From the NCBI GenBank assembly GCA_010206265.1, contig VIQV01000028.1:1-64000 (forward strand): 64,000 nucleotides of DNA, in the 5' to 3' direction. The notes below the pieces were generated by a model, which worked only from the letters and a program-made list of their open reading frames with translations, did not search any database and was not told where the DNA came from. Below are positions 37,640 to 44,079 of this stretch, piece by piece; the first letter of the stretch is position 1; every line of letters starts with the position of its first letter. This DNA comes from Lachnospiraceae bacterium MD329 (GTDB taxonomy: Bacteria; Bacillota; Clostridia; UBA1381). Made by a program: the position numbers and the translations under genes.

Positions 37640-40600
37640 TTACTGTATTTCAGAAAGTGAAATTATATCAACATTATCAGGTGTATACTGATGTTCCATA
37701 ACATCTACAAGAGCTGTTACAGTATCAAGACTTGTCATAATTGACACGGAACATTCAATTGCGGTACGGCGTATTTTAAAACCGTCAGAATGAATGTCAT
37801 TACCTTTCTTCGGAATATCAATAATCAAATCAATCATACCGCTGCGTATAACATCAAGAACATTCGGTACGCCTTCGGAAATCTTTTTTGCAACCTGTAC
37901 AGGTATATTGTTTTCCTGAAGCATAGCCGCCGTGCCTGATGTGGCAATAAAGCTGCAGCCAAGCGCGCTGAAACGCTTTGCAAGCGGCAGGAAGTTTTCC
38001 TTGTCAAGGTCGCGCACCGTAACGAGGATAGTTGAGCCTGCCTTCGGAATAGTGGTAGACGCGGCTGTAAAGCCTTTATACATTGCCTCGTGGAAGTTGT
38101 GACCAACTCCGAGAACTTCACCTGTTGAACGCATTTCAGGACCAAGACTGACTTCAACCTGCGGTAATTTTTCTGTGGAGAATACGGGGACTTTGATTGC
38201 TACAGTGTTTGTCTGCGGTGCAATGCCTGTCGAATAGCCCATTTCCTTTAAGGTTTTACCAAGCATAATGTTTGTCGCAATATCAATTACAGGTACGTTT
38301 GTAACCTTTGTGATATAAGGAACAGTACGACTTGAACGCGGATTAACCTCAATAATATACAGCTCGTCGCGGAACTCGATAAACTGAATGTTAATCATAC
38401 CGATAACCTTTAATTCAAGCGCAATGCGGTAGGTAACATCAACAATTTTATCAATAATATTCTGTGAAACATTCTGCGGAGGATAAATTGAAATGGAGTC
38501 GCCGCTGTGTACGCCTGCTCTTTCAAGATGTTCCATAATACCGGGGATAAGAACATCAGTGCCGTCACAAATCGCGTCAACCTCCAGTTCGCGTCCGCCG
38601 AGATAACGGTCGATAAGCACCGGATTTTTAGTATCCTTTATAAATGCGTCGGTAAGGTAACGTACAAGGTCGATTTCATTACGCGTGATTTCCATACCCT
38701 GACCGCCAAGGACGTATGAAGGACGTACCAAAAGAGGATATTCAAGCTTATTTGCCTCTTCAACGCCTTCTTTAACACTCCATACAGCCTTACCTTTGGG
38801 ACGTTTAATATCAAGCTTTTCAAGCATTTCATCAAACTTTTCTCTGTCCTCTGCCTCATCGATTTGCTTAGGCTGAGTGCCGAGAACAGGAACGTTCATT
38901 TCATCAAGGAAGTTTGCAAGTTTGATAGCAGTCTGACCGCCGAACTGCAAAATAACTCCGTCAGGTTTTTCAAGAAGTATAATGTTATAAACATCTTCTT
39001 CCGTAAGAGGTTCAAAGTACAGCTTGTCAGAGGTATCAAAGTCGGTGGAAACCGTTTCAGGGTTATTGTTTATGATAATCGTTTCAACGCCTGCTTTTTC
39101 AAGTGATAGCACACTGTGAACGGAGCAGTAGTCAAACTCAATGCCCTGACCTATTCTTATAGGACCTGAACCGATAACAATTACCTTCTTTTTATCAGAA
39201 GGGAAGGATTCTGTGGTGTCGTCGTAGGTTGAATAGTAATACGGAGAAACTGCCTCAAACTCGCCTGCGCAGGTATCAACCATTTTGTAAACGGGCGTAA
39301 TACCGAGAGTTTTACGCAGCTCAAAAATTTCGTCTGCCTTGCAGCCGATAAGCTCTGAGATACCCTTGTCCGAAAATCCCATTTTCTTATATTTTTTCAA
39401 TATGTCATAGTTGAGGTCGGACAGCTTAAACTGCTTTAATTCTTCTTCCGCGTCAACAATATTCTTGATTTTCTTAAGGAAGAACGGGTCCATACCTGTG
39501 ATTTCCGCAAGCTTGTCCATATTATAATTACGTCTTATAAGCTCAGCCAAATCAAACAGTCTTTCATCATCAGGCACGATAACGCGCTGTTTTAACTCAA
39601 CTGTGGTACGCTGTTTTGAGGACTGTCTTTCAAGAGTGTATTGCTTTATTTCAAGCGAGCGTATACCTTTTAGCAGTGATGATTCAAGTGTGTTGCCGAT
39701 AGCCATAACTTCACCTGTAGCCATCATTTTAGTACCAAGGTTACGTTTTGCGCCGAAGAATTTATCAAACGGCCATTTTGGAATTTTTGTTACAACGTAG
39801 TCGATTGCAGGCTCAAAGCAGGCAAAAGTCTGACCTGTAACGGCATTTTTAATTTCGTCAAGAGTGTAGCCGAGCGCAATTTTTGCGGCGATTTTAGCAA
39901 TCGGATAACCTGTAGCTTTTGACGCAAGCGCAGATGAACGGCTCACGCGCGGATTGATTTCGATAACCGCGTAATTAAAGCTTTCGGGGTCAAGCGCAAA
40001 CTGTACGTTACAGCCGCCCTTAATTTCAATTGAGTTGATAATATCAATTGCCGCCTTACGTAGCATTTGATATTCCTTATCAGCAAGTGTAAGTGCAGGA
40101 GCTACAACAATTGAGTCGCCTGTGTGTACGCCGACAGGGTCGATATTTTCCATTGAACATACAGTGATACAGTTACCAGCTCCGTCACGCATAACTTCAA
40201 ATTCAATTTCTTTCCAGCCTTTAATACTCTTTTCCAAAAGTACCTGACCCACTCGCGACAGGTGAAGTCCTTGTGAAAGGATCGTTTCAAGCTGTTCAGG
40301 ATTTTCTGCTATGCCGCCGCCTGTGCCGCCGAGAGTATACGCAGGGCGTACAATAACAGGATATCCAATCTGTTTTGCAAATGCAAGTCCCGATTCCAAA
40401 TCGGTAACAATTTCAGACGGTGCAATAGGCTGATTGGTGCGTTCCATAAGACGCTTAAAACTGTCACGGTCTTCTCCTTCTTTAATAGAAGCGATAGAAG
40501 TACCAATAACCTTCATATTATATTTATCGAATATTCCCTTGTCGTAAAGCTCGCAGGCGAGGTTAAGACCTGTCTGACCGCCCATACCTGCAATAATTGA

Positions 40601-40852
40601 ATCTGGACGTTCTTTTTTGATTATTTTTTCAATGTATTCAGCGGTAAGCGGCTCTATGTATGTATGAGTAGCCATACCGCGGTCAGTCATTATAGTAGCG
40701 GGGTTTGAGTTAACAAGAACAACCTCAATACCTTCGTCTTTAATGGCCTGACACGCCTGTGTGCCCGAATAGTCAAATTCGGCGGCCTGTCCTATAACGA
40801 TAGGACCTGAACCTATTACAAGAACTTTTTTTATACTATTATCTAAAGGCAT
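37640..40852 (-). CDS. carB: Carbamoyl-phosphate synthase, large subunit
   Basis: The 1070-residue subunit makes carbamoyl phosphate from bicarbonate, ammonia and two ATP. It has two homologous ATP-grasp halves (each with GSGPI(V/R)IGQ, near residues 13 and 560) and a C-terminal MGS-like allosteric domain (about 930-1065), where UMP or ornithine binds in relatives. It follows carA with one base between and is the end of a leftward operon. Confidence 0.97.
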
Positions 40853-40853
40853 A

Positions 40854-41906
40854 TTATTTTACCTCCTTTAAAAATCTGTCGAACAGCCAGCCTGTGTCAA
40901 GTGGTCCCGGAGCTGCTTCGGGGTGGAACTGAACACTCTGAATTGGCAGTGATTTGTGACGGATACCTTCGCAGGTACCGTCGTTTACATTTATAAAGGT
41001 TTCCTCAACTTCATCAGTATAGTCGGAAACAACATAGTTGTGGTTTTGGCTTGTAATAAATACATTGCCTGTTTTAAGGTCTTTTACGGGGTGGTTTCCG
41101 CCGTGATGACCGAATTTAAGCTTTTTGGTTTTACAGCCGAGAGCAAGACCTATAATCTGATGTCCCATACATATACCGCAAATCGGGAATTTACCGATAA
41201 GAGCTTTTACAGTATCTACCGTGCCCGGGGCGTCAAGAGGGTCGCCGGGACCGTTTGAAAGAAATACAAGATCGGGATTTACCGCCGCTATTTTATCGGC
41301 AGGAGTATCGGCAGGGAATATCGTTACTTTGCAGTCGCGTTTTATAAGGTCACGGACAATGCCCTGCTTTGCACCCAAATCAATAAATGCAACGTGCGTT
41401 CTGCCGGTTTCGTTCTCCACATATATTTCGTCGGCTGTGGTATTCATTATAACTGAGCTGTTGTCAAGCGACGCCATAAGGATTTTAACGTCCTCTTCGC
41501 TCGGCTCGCCCTTCATAATAACGCCCTTCATTGTACCTGTTTCTCTGATAACGCGTGTAAGAGCGCGCGTATCAATGCCTTCAAGACCGACAACTCCTTC
41601 TTCCTTCAGAAAGTCGTCAAGATTCATTTCGTTTCTGAAGTTTGACGGAAAGTCGCACTTTTCTCTTACGACAAATGCTTTAAGGTTGGTGTGTTTTGCC
41701 TCCATATCCTCAAGATTGATACCGTAGTTACCGATAAGAGGGAAGGTCATAGTTACGATTTGTCCCGCAAAAGACGGGTCGGTAAGGGTTTCCTGATAAC
41801 CCGTCATACCGGTTGTAAAAACGACTTCTCCTACGATGTTTTTTTCGGCGCCGAAAAGTGTTCCTGAAAAACGCATACCGTTTTCCAAAATAAGCTGTGC
41901 TTTCAT
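40854..41906 (-). CDS. carA: Carbamoyl-phosphate synthase, small subunit (glutaminase)
   Basis: The 350-residue subunit hydrolyses glutamine and channels ammonia to CarB. The N-terminal CPSase domain (1-130) is followed by a class I amidotransferase domain with nucleophile Cys246 (ICGICMGHQ) and a C-terminal FHPE motif. I start at the ATG at 41906 with AAAGGAGAAA upstream; a longer frame to 41945 would run into the terminator hairpin. A leader peptide gene and a T9 terminator lie between its promoter and start. Confidence 0.97.
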
Positions 41907-41931
41907 AAATATTTCTCCTTTCGCAAATTCC

Positions 41932-41962
41932 AAAAAAAAAGACAATGAACAAATACATTGTC
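41932..41962 (-). terminator. Attenuator-type terminator upstream of carA
   Basis: Minus strand: GACAATG (41956-41962), loop TATTTGTT, CATTGTC (41941-41947), then nine T residues (41932-41940). The stem is short (7 bp) but the T tract is perfect. Its 5' arm overlaps the leader stop codon, so a ribosome there would block the hairpin. Confidence 0.8.
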
Positions 41963-42053
41963 AATTGATTTTTAAAAATGAAAATAGAAATAAAGGGGAA
42001 ACGAGATACCCTTTAAGAGCATATATTAAGCTGTGACCGTGATGAAGATACAT
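41961..42053 (-). CDS. Leader peptide upstream of carAB (putative)
   Basis: A 30-codon frame starts at ATG 42053, eight or nine bases after AAAGGAGAGA, and ends with TGA at 41961-41963. The peptide begins MYLHHGHSLIYALKG and ends SPLFLFSFLKIN. Codons 20-27 are U-rich (CCT TTA TTT CTA TTT TCA). It contains no arginine codon, so arginine-specific stalling is unlikely. A possible pause hairpin, AAAGGG with CCCTTT (42009-42014 with 41992-41997), precedes the U-rich run. The layout matches UTP-sensing leaders of enterobacterial pyrBI. It is too short to judge by coding statistics. Confidence 0.6.
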   Translation of the reverse strand: MYLHHGHSLIYALKGYLVSPLFLFSFLKIN

Positions 42054-42084
42054 AAGTGTTTCTCTCCTTTTATTCATTTATAAT

Positions 42085-42113
42085 ATTGTACCACTATACG
42101 GACAATTTGTCAA
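42085..42113 (-). promoter_or_regulatory. carAB promoter
   Basis: Minus strand: TTGACA (42108-42113), 17 bases, TACAAT (42085-42090). It lies about 32 bases upstream of the leader peptide ATG and 180 upstream of carA. Confidence 0.85.
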
Positions 42114-42223: not shown

Positions 42224-42253
42224 TTGACAATATACGCTTTAGGGGAGTATAAT
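42224..42253 (+). promoter_or_regulatory. glnK-amtB promoter
   Basis: TTGACA (42224-42229), 18 bases, TATAAT (42248-42253). Confidence 0.8.
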
Positions 42254-42278
42254 GCAGATAAAGTAAATAACCGAACAC

Positions 42279-42321
42279 AAAGGCGTGTTTGCGCAGAGGA
42301 ATCTGCGCAGACGCGTTTTTT
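42279..42321 (+). terminator. First leader hairpin of glnK (terminator-like)
   Basis: The inner stem GCGCAGA/TCTGCGC with loop GGAA (42291-42308) continues outward through GGCGTGTTT with AGACGCG, using several G-U pairs, and is followed by six T residues. It starts only about 20 bases after the expected transcript start. Confidence 0.75.
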
Positions 42322-42358
42322 AGATTTTCGGCAGGAACTACTTAATAATATTAAGCAC

Positions 42359-42399
42359 AAGGACGTGTTTTCCGTATGAACGGCAGACGCGTCTTTTTT
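42359..42399 (+). terminator. Second leader hairpin of glnK (terminator-like)
   Basis: The inner stem CCGT/ACGG with loop ATGA and the outer stem AAGGACGTGTTT with AGACGCGTCTT are followed by a T run. The outer stem repeats that of the first hairpin, about 80 bases upstream, with the common sequence CACAA(A)GGnCGTGTTT. Confidence 0.75.
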
Positions 42400-42424
42400 G
42401 TTTAAAAGAAAGGGGAAATTTGTT

Positions 42425-42775
42425 ATGGCAGAAATGACAAAAATCGAAATTATTACCAGACAGAGCAAGCTGGAGGAACTTAAGGCGGCTCTTAATGAAA
42501 TCGGCATTAACGGTATGACAGTGACGAATGTTCTGGGCTACGGAGCGCAGAAGGGGCAGAAACATCAGTACAGGGGAGTCGAGTATAATGTTGACCTTGT
42601 ACCGAAAGTAAAGGTTGAAATGGTTGTATGTACCGTGCCTGTGGACGATGTTGTAAATACGGCAGTGTCGGTACTGCGTACGGGAGAAATTGGTGACGGA
42701 AAAATCTTTGTTTCGCCTGTAACGAGAGTTATTAAGGTGAGAACGGGAGAGGAAGACAGAGAGGCATTATTGTAA
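42425..42775 (+). CDS. glnK: PII nitrogen regulatory protein
   Basis: The 116-residue trimeric PII protein binds ATP/ADP and 2-oxoglutarate and gates the ammonium channel encoded next. Its T-loop GQKHQYRGVEYNVDLVPK carries a Tyr (Tyr54) at the position uridylylated in proteobacteria, and TGEIGDGKIFV forms the nucleotide site. The ATG at 42425 has AAAGGGGAAA upstream. It lies 20 bases before amtB. A leader with two terminator-like hairpins precedes it, so attenuation is likely. Confidence 0.96.
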   Translation: MAEMTKIEIITRQSKLEELKAALNEIGINGMTVTNVLGYGAQKGQKHQYRGVEYNVDLVPKVKVEMVVCTVPVDDVVNTAVSVLRTGEIGDGKIFVSPVTRVIKVRTGEEDREALL

Positions 42776-42795: not shown

Positions 42796-44079
42796 ATGAG
42801 TACAGAATTATTAACAACGGCGGTTGATTGTTTTTGGCTGTTTTTCGGCGGCGTACTGGTGTTTTTTATGCAAACAGGATTTACAATGGTTGAGGCGGGT
42901 TTTACGAGAAGTAAGAACACCGGTAATATTATAATGAAGAATATAGTTGACTTTATGTTCGGTTCAATCATTTATTGGGTGATTGGCTACGGGCTTATGT
43001 ACGGTAAAGGTAACGGATTTATCGGTATACCGTTTGGAGATATGTTTATGAACGGTATGGCAGGAGCGGAGAATATGGACTATACGGCTCTGTTTTTCCA
43101 GACGGTATTCTGTGCGACTTCGGCAACGATTGTATCGGGAGCAATGGCTGAACGTACAAACTTTAAGGCATATTGTATTTACAGCGCGGCTATTTCACTT
43201 TTCATTTATCCGATTGCAGGTCACTGGGTATGGGGCGGAGGCTGGCTGAGTGAAATAGGTTTTCACGATTTTGCAGGTTCAGCAATTGTACATATGCTCG
43301 GCGGTACGCTCTCATTTGTTGGTGCGGCAATTCTTGGTCCTAGAATCGGCAAGTACACAAAGGATGGCAGGACAAACGTTATCCCAGGTCACAATATTCT
43401 TATCGGAGCACTCGGAGTTCTTATTCTGTGGGTAGGCTGGTTTGGTTTTAACCCTGCGTCAACGGGAGGTTTGTCAGACGGCGGTGTGCAAACGGCGGCA
43501 AAGGTGTTCATAACTACAAATCTTGCGGCTTGTACAGCGGCAATCGTTACAATGTTCTTTACTTGGTTCCGTTATGGTAAGCCTGATGTTTCAATGACGT
43601 TGAACGGTGTGCTCGGAGGACTTGTTGCAATCACGGCTCCGTGTGATCTTGTAACTCCGTTTGCGTCAATTATTATTGGAGCTGTCGGCGCGATACTTAT
43701 GTGTCTTTCGATTCCGTTTATTGATACAAAGCTGAAAATTGATGACCCTGTAGGTGCAATCAGTGTTCACGGTGTATGCGGATTGTGGGGGACGCTGTCG
43801 GTTGGCTTGTTTGCAAGTGATACAACTGCAGGAGCAGAGCTTTTGGGCTTGTTCTACGGCGGAGGATTAAAAACCTTGGGCGTTCAGGCGCTGGGCGCAG
43901 TGTCGCTTATCGCGTGGGCGGCAGTAATCGGCGCAGTGTTGTTCCTTGTGCTGAGGAAGGTAGGAATACTTCGTGCAACTCCGCGCGAGGAGGTTGAAGG
44001 ACTGGATTCGACCGAACACGGTCTTGCGTCGGCTTACCCCGACTTTGTAACCTCATATAACGAGAATAAGTCGTTCTAA
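42796..44079 (+). CDS. amtB: Ammonium transporter
   Basis: The 427-residue Amt/Rh channel has about 11 membrane helices. The twin-histidine pair of the pore is seen in AIVHMLGG and SVHGVCG, with GHWVWGGGW near the external vestibule. There is no cleavable signal peptide. It conducts ammonium or ammonia inward, and GlnK is expected to block it when nitrogen is plentiful. GGGAGG precedes the start. It is the last gene of the pair. Confidence 0.96.
   Translation: MSTELLTTAVDCFWLFFGGVLVFFMQTGFTMVEAGFTRSKNTGNIIMKNIVDFMFGSIIYWVIGYGLMYGKGNGFIGIPFGDMFMNGMAGAENMDYTALFFQTVFCATSATIVSGAMAERTNFKAYCIYSAAISLFIYPIAGHWVWGGGWLSEIGFHDFAGSAIVHMLGGTLSFVGAAILGPRIGKYTKDGRTNVIPGHNILIGALGVLILWVGWFGFNPASTGGLSDGGVQTAAKVFITTNLAACTAAIVTMFFTWFRYGKPDVSMTLNGVLGGLVAITAPCDLVTPFASIIIGAVGAILMCLSIPFIDTKLKIDDPVGAISVHGVCGLWGTLSVGLFASDTTAGAELLGLFYGGGLKTLGVQALGAVSLIAWAAVIGAVLFLVLRKVGILRATPREEVEGLDSTEHGLASAYPDFVTSYNENKSF

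Follow-up and report, generated by a model that had tools for sequence, protein, structure and literature searches.

The carAB operon of Lachnospiraceae bacterium MD329 is, to judge from comparative sequence analysis, very probably preceded by a real and conserved translation-coupled attenuator with the geometry of Escherichia coli pyrBI, which is present in a clade of Clostridia. By analogy, we consider it probable that this translation-coupled attenuator also works like that of E. coli pyrBI, with UTP/CTP as the signal, read through a slowed polymerase. The window, i.e. the whole stretch of 64,000 nucleotides that was analysed, carries the leader on its minus strand, where the 208 bases up to the carA start contain a promoter, a ribosome-binding site, a frame of 30 codons, a T-rich tract and a terminator (Table 1). 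A sequence-only reading of the window had proposed these parts, and its coordinates were right: the promoter, the frame led by a Shine-Dalgarno (SD) sequence, the tract and the hairpin with nine T residues, whose 5' arm lies over the leader stop codon, were all found in the sequence.

The leader promoter matches the consensus at 11 of 12 bases and, by eye, comparable hexamers lie ahead of the leader in relatives. The leader stop codon contributes its last two bases to the start of the terminator stem. The T run is separated from the carA ATG by 25 nt, which leaves no room for another promoter; therefore, carAB transcripts must cross the terminator. We take the two genes to be carA and carB from their translations. 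The genome has a single full-length carA; the sole further match, which covers part of the query at 25% identity, was taken for another amidotransferase. An Rfam scan of the window gave no match at gathering.

Table 1. Features of the carAB leader region, in positions of the window
Feature	Position	Strand	Description
Leader promoter	42085..42113	-	TTGACA 42113-42108, 17-nt spacer, TACAAT 42090-42085, TG before the second hexamer
Leader ribosome-binding site	42064..42070	-	AAAGGAG, a strong site
Leader ORF	41961..42053	-	ATG 42053 to TGA ending 41961; 30 codons + TGA; peptide MYLHHGHSLIYALKGYLVSPLFLFSFLKIN
T-rich (pyrimidine-rich) tract, 3' half of leader frame	41974..42001	-	19 T of 28; one TTNTTT NusG-type motif (TTATTT)
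Candidate pause hairpin AAAGGG/CCCTTT	41992..42014	-	arms 42014-42009 / 41997-41992; not conserved
Intrinsic terminator (attenuator)	41932..41962	-	7-bp stem GACAATG/CATTGTC 41962-41941, 8-nt loop, nine T 41940-41932
carA (carbamoyl-phosphate synthase small subunit, presumed)	40854..41906	-	ATG 41906; own ribosome site AAGGAG 41920-41915
carB (large subunit, presumed)	37640..40852	-	1 nt after carA

Divergent to the leader, the plus strand of the window carries a promoter with 12 of 12 consensus bases (42224-42253), a hairpin with a T run (42279-42320) and, by eye, a similar second one at about 42355-42400. Both hairpins precede the genes at 42398-42775 and 42796-44079, which are presumably P-II-like and ammonium-transporter-like, and the paired hairpins within 42224-42400 look like a tandem attenuator of nitrogen genes.

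The comparison among relatives used 31 leaders anchored by eye, 25 of the window type and six from Monoglobus; counts on these 31 are conditional on that anchoring and, since the leaders are related, p-values from shuffles overstate their independence. A match of carA strength (E below 1e-80) was found in 56 of 61 genomes (the own genome and 60 relatives), the other matches being weak. Thirty carA loci were taken, of which 27 had at least 150 nt upstream, and three named loci were added to give 30 upstream regions. By reading, 24 of these regions carry a window-type leader, one (L095) carries a Monoglobus leader and five (L023, L027, L030, L031 and L096) carry none; L095 was counted later as L199, apparently from the same genome, and was therefore not counted itself. 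The leader-less loci L023 and L027 have carA at 77% and 64%. A detector for an SD-led frame with its stop within -20 to +22 of a terminator stem was positive in 19 of the same 30 regions, which belong to the carA genes closest to that of the window, and in none of 300 dinucleotide shuffles. Upstream of other carA genes it was positive in 3 of 93 cases and in none of 930 shuffles. The detector positives L183 and L184 were discarded, as the terminator belongs to the upstream gene, and L149 was rejected as an independent leader case, as its terminator lies before carA's own promoter. This last locus (L149:1239-1345, Candidatus Ventricola) has a T-rich frame of 26 codons ending RLFPFSIFAFSAV, with its stop inside a terminator; the frame sits between what we take to be a purA-like gene and the carA promoter.

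No such leader was found in sixteen further carA upstream regions from the same family and order, and same-family relatives without it include L177 and carA of G017, G021, G032 and G035. In a class-wide search, carA was detected at E 1e-50 in 151 of 216 genomes, and 60 upstream regions were chosen for reading. Seven leaders were accepted, L194 of the window type and L195-L200 from Monoglobus. The Monoglobus leaders have a different sequence with the parts in the same order as in the window type, and were present in six of seven upstream regions of that family, L234 being without. The detector flagged L194, L196, L197, L202, L213 and L236, and L195, L198, L199 and L200 were accepted by reading alone. 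L202 and L213 were rejected as leaders because they match the PyrR site, and L236 because its stem is weak and 259 nt away from carA and its start is TTG. The host, which had been called a Clostridium in the sequence-only reading, is not one in the narrow sense; the nearest named carA genes are those of 'Clostridiales bacterium SUG1513' (78%) and Monoglobus (66%). By eye, the leader was seen neither upstream of pyrB or pyrR-pyrB in 20 genomes nor upstream of the own-genome pyrE, which closely follows another gene. In several genomes carA lies, by eye, downstream of the ends of other pyrimidine genes in an operon, with an Rfam PyrR element upstream on the same contig.

In two leader-less loci, L177 and L229, a promoter-like sequence is followed by a hairpin and a T run before carA, with no frame that is clearly a leader; these may be carA attenuators of another kind. 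A GC-rich repeat (GTAGGGGCGGTCATCGGCC type) occurs in several copies between the leader terminator and carA in L015, and similar copies lie near the far end of carA in L008, L013 and L016, all as seen by eye.

Frame 0 is open in all 31 anchored leaders, and the +1 and +2 frames are stopped in 26 and 30 of them, respectively. The frames are 23-42 codons long, start 66-112 nt before the stem and follow an SD-like sequence, which was recognised by reading in the anchored leaders and in most also by script. Since these frames had been anchored by eye, a better test of the frame is provided by eight genomes found with a covariance model that was built from 15 of the 31 leaders and consists of tract and terminator only. 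With stricter filters the model matched 25 of 121 genomes, once each, and carA lies just downstream in 25 of 25. Eight of the matches were new, and in all eight an open frame ends in the 5' arm of the hairpin, at +2 to +8 from the stem start: six stop at +2, and in L297 and L302 TGG stands in place of the usual TGA and the frame runs on to the following in-frame TGA, at +8. The script found five of the eight frames; the other three, L298 with its weak ribosome site, L297 and L302, were recognised on reading and subsequently checked. In total, all 31 anchored leaders and all eight new ones have a short frame before the structural gene. The peptides diverge, with little in common beyond T-rich codons. 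Among 17 pairs compared, several of which have 0-4 changes only and say little, pN is mostly 0.4-0.9 of pS where there are enough changes, and on these pairs a functional conserved peptide was rejected; L003/L004 shows the opposite trend, with mostly silent changes (pS 0.19, pN 0.01).

The leader stop ends at -9 to +18 nt, once at +41, from the stem start in the 31 leaders, and the terminator overlaps or abuts the frame, inside the reach of a ribosome. The stem overlaps the stop in 23 of 31 leaders compared with 12 of 80 ordinary cases, or 9 once outer A-T pairs are peeled, a modest contrast. In 425 kb of the own genome, the 80 strong terminators of ordinary genes lie at a median of 8 nt after stops, 54 of them at less than 12 nt, versus a median of 16 nt and 16 of 39 in 299 kb of E. 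coli K-12 (Fisher p 0.009; 0.050 with outer A-T pairs peeled, 49/80). Thus, the closeness of stop and terminator alone is not special, since the ordinary genes of the genome have it too; the spacing points to runaway transcription, without proving it. In an alignment of 21 leaders, in which L020 is misaligned and from which L014, L016, L025, L028 and the six Monoglobus leaders were left out, 95.5% of the cells of the terminator stem are paired, and 5 cells are changed on both sides versus 1.2 in shuffles. Two of five covariation measures were not above shuffles; pairs changed on both sides number 2 (140 of 500 shuffles as high) and further pair types 4 (376 of 500).

Segments of 28 nt with at least 19 T occur 74 times among 63,973 on this strand, at nine places besides the leader; the tract is unusual, not unique, in the window. 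The T-richest 28 nt of the 31 leaders hold 13-21 T. In the 25 window-type leaders a U-rich tract precedes the terminator: T makes up 0.54 of the final 40 nt next to the stem versus 0.28 earlier in the frame. The six Monoglobus leaders show no such enrichment in their final 40 nt (0.37 vs 0.43 earlier), their T-rich part being located further upstream. In alignments of 22 and of 15 leaders, the tract columns rank among the best conserved. A strict tract motif could be placed in 10 of the 31 leaders, in codon phase 2 in L001, L003, L004 and L007 and in phase 0 in L006, L009, L010, L012, L013 and L029, the TGA holding the same position within the stem in both phases. The tract is thus conserved yet read in two codon phases, and therefore nucleotides, not residues, are maintained. 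The two phases may represent one (ancestral) event.

Except in L011, L028 and L199, the 45 nt that precede the stem contain a TTNTTT motif, giving 28 of 31 leaders with the motif; shuffles average 18.1, and none of 500 reaches 28. The total number of motifs is 50 versus 38.3 in shuffles (p 0.038). The own NusG carries N-T where PDB chain 8ehq_G, which we take to be Bacillus subtilis NusG, has N81/T82, and the E. coli chain has S-V. As described in PMC12288461, N81/T82 are the contact of B. subtilis NusG with the TTNTTT pause motif, the motif alone is insufficient for NusG pausing, and in B. subtilis tlrB NusG pausing buys time for translation of the leader.

A pause hairpin had also been proposed in the sequence-only reading. 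The AAAGGG/CCCTTT fold is present in the window, with -6.5 kcal/mol for the stretch (shuffle p 0.06), but among 14 leaders folded singly it was found in only L001 (the window), L003, L004 and L007, and is not conserved. E. coli pyrBI has a pause hairpin before its tract. Of the pyrBI-type layout as proposed, the translation-coupled geometry is kept in relatives, whereas the pause hairpin falls away as a needed part. A pairing with the terminator 5' arm that could serve as an antiterminator was better than shuffles at p<0.05 in 0 of 31 leaders (median p 0.79), and the consensus fold, from an alignment that took 22 of the 31 leaders, contains the terminator alone. Therefore, the ribosome on the leader is the only visible antiterminator. 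Altogether, the comparison of related carA leaders, which the sequence-only reading had suggested as a check, shows at the sequence level that frame, tract and terminator are maintained in their order, that the peptide is not, and that no alternative RNA structure is visible.

PyrR attenuators (RF00515), known from pyr and car genes of Firmicutes, also terminate transcription prematurely before pyrimidine genes. They rely on a protein-bound RNA loop with an antiterminator. Unlike in these attenuators, a PyrR site was not found in the window leader, in agreement with the earlier statement that no PyrR-type loop is seen: RF00515 is not among the three Rfam matches up to E=5, the best of which is the ylbH leader with 19 bits versus a gathering score of 50. 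As a positive control, a like search placed PyrR before carA of four loci of family f38, with E 0.013-0.069, below gathering. In this family the carA genes with a PyrR-like site (GGTCC.G.GAGGCC) are L201, L202, L206 and L213, which were matched, and L096, by eye only. With stricter filters, RF00515 was detected at E 0.001 in 21 of 61 genomes, three of them over gathering, and in 0 of 23 leader genomes.

The PyrR protein scored over the cut-off in 40 of 61 genomes, including 15 of the 23 leader genomes searched. It was below the cut-off in the other eight, that of the window included (G000, G001, G003, G015, G018, G026, G030 and G033), some of these assemblies being incomplete. In G000, G001 and G015, pyrB follows a spacer where relatives carry pyrR, and in G003 pyrR is split into two pieces, one of which contains a stop (loci L074, L075, L088 and L077 for absence and pieces). 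Most of the genus keeps pyrR-pyrB, without an RF00515 match. We read these sequences as a putative loss of pyrR in progress in the genus. The leader does not go with PyrR, since the genomes bearing RF00515 include no leader genome and pyrR is lacking in 8 of 23. The sequence-only reading started from the generalisation that Firmicutes normally use PyrR; here PyrR is not simply replaced, as 15 of 23 leader genomes keep it and eight do not.

The leader resembles E. coli pyrBI (pyrL) in having a leader frame, a pyrimidine-rich stretch before the terminator and a terminator within reach of the ribosome; with the same script, start codon and stem are 87 nt apart in pyrL, inside the range of the leaders described here. 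It differs in that the stop usually lies at the 5' arm or inside it (in pyrL, 48 nt beyond the start of the stem), the T fraction of the last 40 nt is higher (0.35 in pyrL, against 0.54 in the 25 leaders), the operon is carAB, the host belongs to Clostridia and the pause hairpin is not conserved. As given in PMC4824070, the pyrBI terminator lies within its leader gene and is not repressed at normal UTP, and the terminators of amino-acid attenuators lie more than 20 bp after theirs; the predicted geometry of our leader matches pyrBI, not amino-acid attenuators. We judge by analogy that the leader works like pyrBI, and do not claim membership by descent or homology.

Translated leaders with a terminator are also described in Firmicutes for the Staphylococcus aureus ilv leucine leader (PMC5794164) and the histidine leaders of Bacilli (PMC2965389); according to these sources, they differ from our leader in sensing an amino acid by codon stalling, with an antiterminator proposed for the S. 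aureus one. Similarly, B. subtilis vmlR and tlrB, as reported in PMC9226507 and PMC12288461, combine a uORF, a T-rich NusG pause and a terminator in a bacterium with runaway transcription; they differ in their antibiotic-stalled ribosome, alternative folds and resistance genes. E. coli carAB also responds to UTP, but does so through regulators that act at its two promoters and, at P1, through reiterative initiation that depends on UTP, and the account in PMC6245113 states that attenuation does not act at P2. The carA motif presented in PMC8632094 was set aside, as it is a Polynucleobacter hairpin different from the leader here. In an open-access literature search we recognised no leader-frame attenuator on car or pyr genes of Firmicutes, which does not prove that none has been described.

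Trailing-ribosome attenuation is considered to require that transcription and translation be tightly coupled. In B. subtilis, as reported in PMC7858274, the polymerase outruns the ribosomes, terminators lie just behind stop codons and coupling is lacking. If transcription is uncoupled here too, termination would be the default of the leader and slowing of the polymerase the switch. Transcription would start about 25 nt before the leader frame, to judge from the promoter. When pyrimidine nucleotides are plentiful, the polymerase would pass the T-rich tract fast and the ribosome would lag, the GACAATG/CATTGTC hairpin would form and transcription would end before carA. When UTP is short (perhaps also CTP, given the C run), the polymerase would dwell in the tract, which would let the ribosome reach the leader stop codon; its footprint would cover the 5' arm, and carAB would be transcribed. 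A NusG pause may act with, or instead of, the UTP shortage. Both the dependence of readthrough on the ribosome and the role of the pyrimidine nucleotide pool as the signal are inferred here; UTP sensing is suggested by the likeness to pyrBI, the T content and what the operon makes.

The chief rival keeps the same ribosome-gated terminator and takes the tract for a NusG-dependent pause at TTNTTT that synchronises polymerase and ribosome, so that the signal would be translation capacity or growth state, not UTP. The excess of the motif near the stem in 28 leaders over shuffles agrees with it, but kinship of the leaders inflates this contrast, and the motif is missing from three leaders. Likewise, the N-T residues of the own NusG are pro-pausing and pausing aids leader translation in tlrB, but the same source describes the motif alone as insufficient (PMC12288461). 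The position of ordinary terminators close behind stop codons in this genome also speaks for this reading; the T content of the richest 28 nt, more than one motif needs, and the pyrimidine precursor that the operon makes speak against it, and we consider it unlikely, if worth keeping in mind. It is improbable that the frame encodes a small protein and ends in an ordinary terminator of its own, with carA expressed by unregulated leaky readthrough: the terminator spacing of ordinary genes and the mostly silent changes of L003/L004 would fit, but pN is 0.4-0.9 of pS in most pairs with enough changes, several being too close to tell, and the tract is kept as DNA across different frames.

Attenuation of the trp type at codons for arginine, or for Phe, Leu or Ser, is more improbable still. 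The operon also supplies arginine, and the leaders are rich in Phe (12%), Ser (12%) and Leu (9%), yet 14 of 31 leaders have no Arg codon, Arg makes up 4.2% of residues, the residues encoded by the tract change with codon phase and no leader has an antiterminator better than shuffles; moreover, the terminator overlaps or abuts the frame, instead of lying more than 20 bp after it (PMC4824070). The least probable of these readings is that PyrR controls the leader through an unrecognised RNA site: the PyrR genes of 15 leader genomes would allow it, whereas eight leader genomes have no PyrR over the cut-off, with pyrB in the place of pyrR in three (G000, G001, G015), and RF00515 was found neither in the 23 leader genomes nor, up to E=5, in the window leader.

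Returning to pyrimidine sensing as in pyrBI, we tentatively put forward a fuller scenario, in which an attenuator sensing nucleotides in the manner of pyrBI evolved independently on carAB in Clostridia, in a lineage where terminator placement suggests runaway transcription. Uncoupling would then be no hindrance and would make OFF the default, and UTP shortage, helped by NusG pausing, would produce coupling on demand; the lineage would have dropped the PyrR RNA element and, in places, pyrR. A leader of pyrBI geometry, a design familiar from E. coli, would not have been expected in Clostridia. Its conservation makes it a small, portable test of whether a slowed polymerase allows local coupling, and it suggests that Firmicutes may have a second route, besides PyrR, to regulate pyrimidine synthesis.
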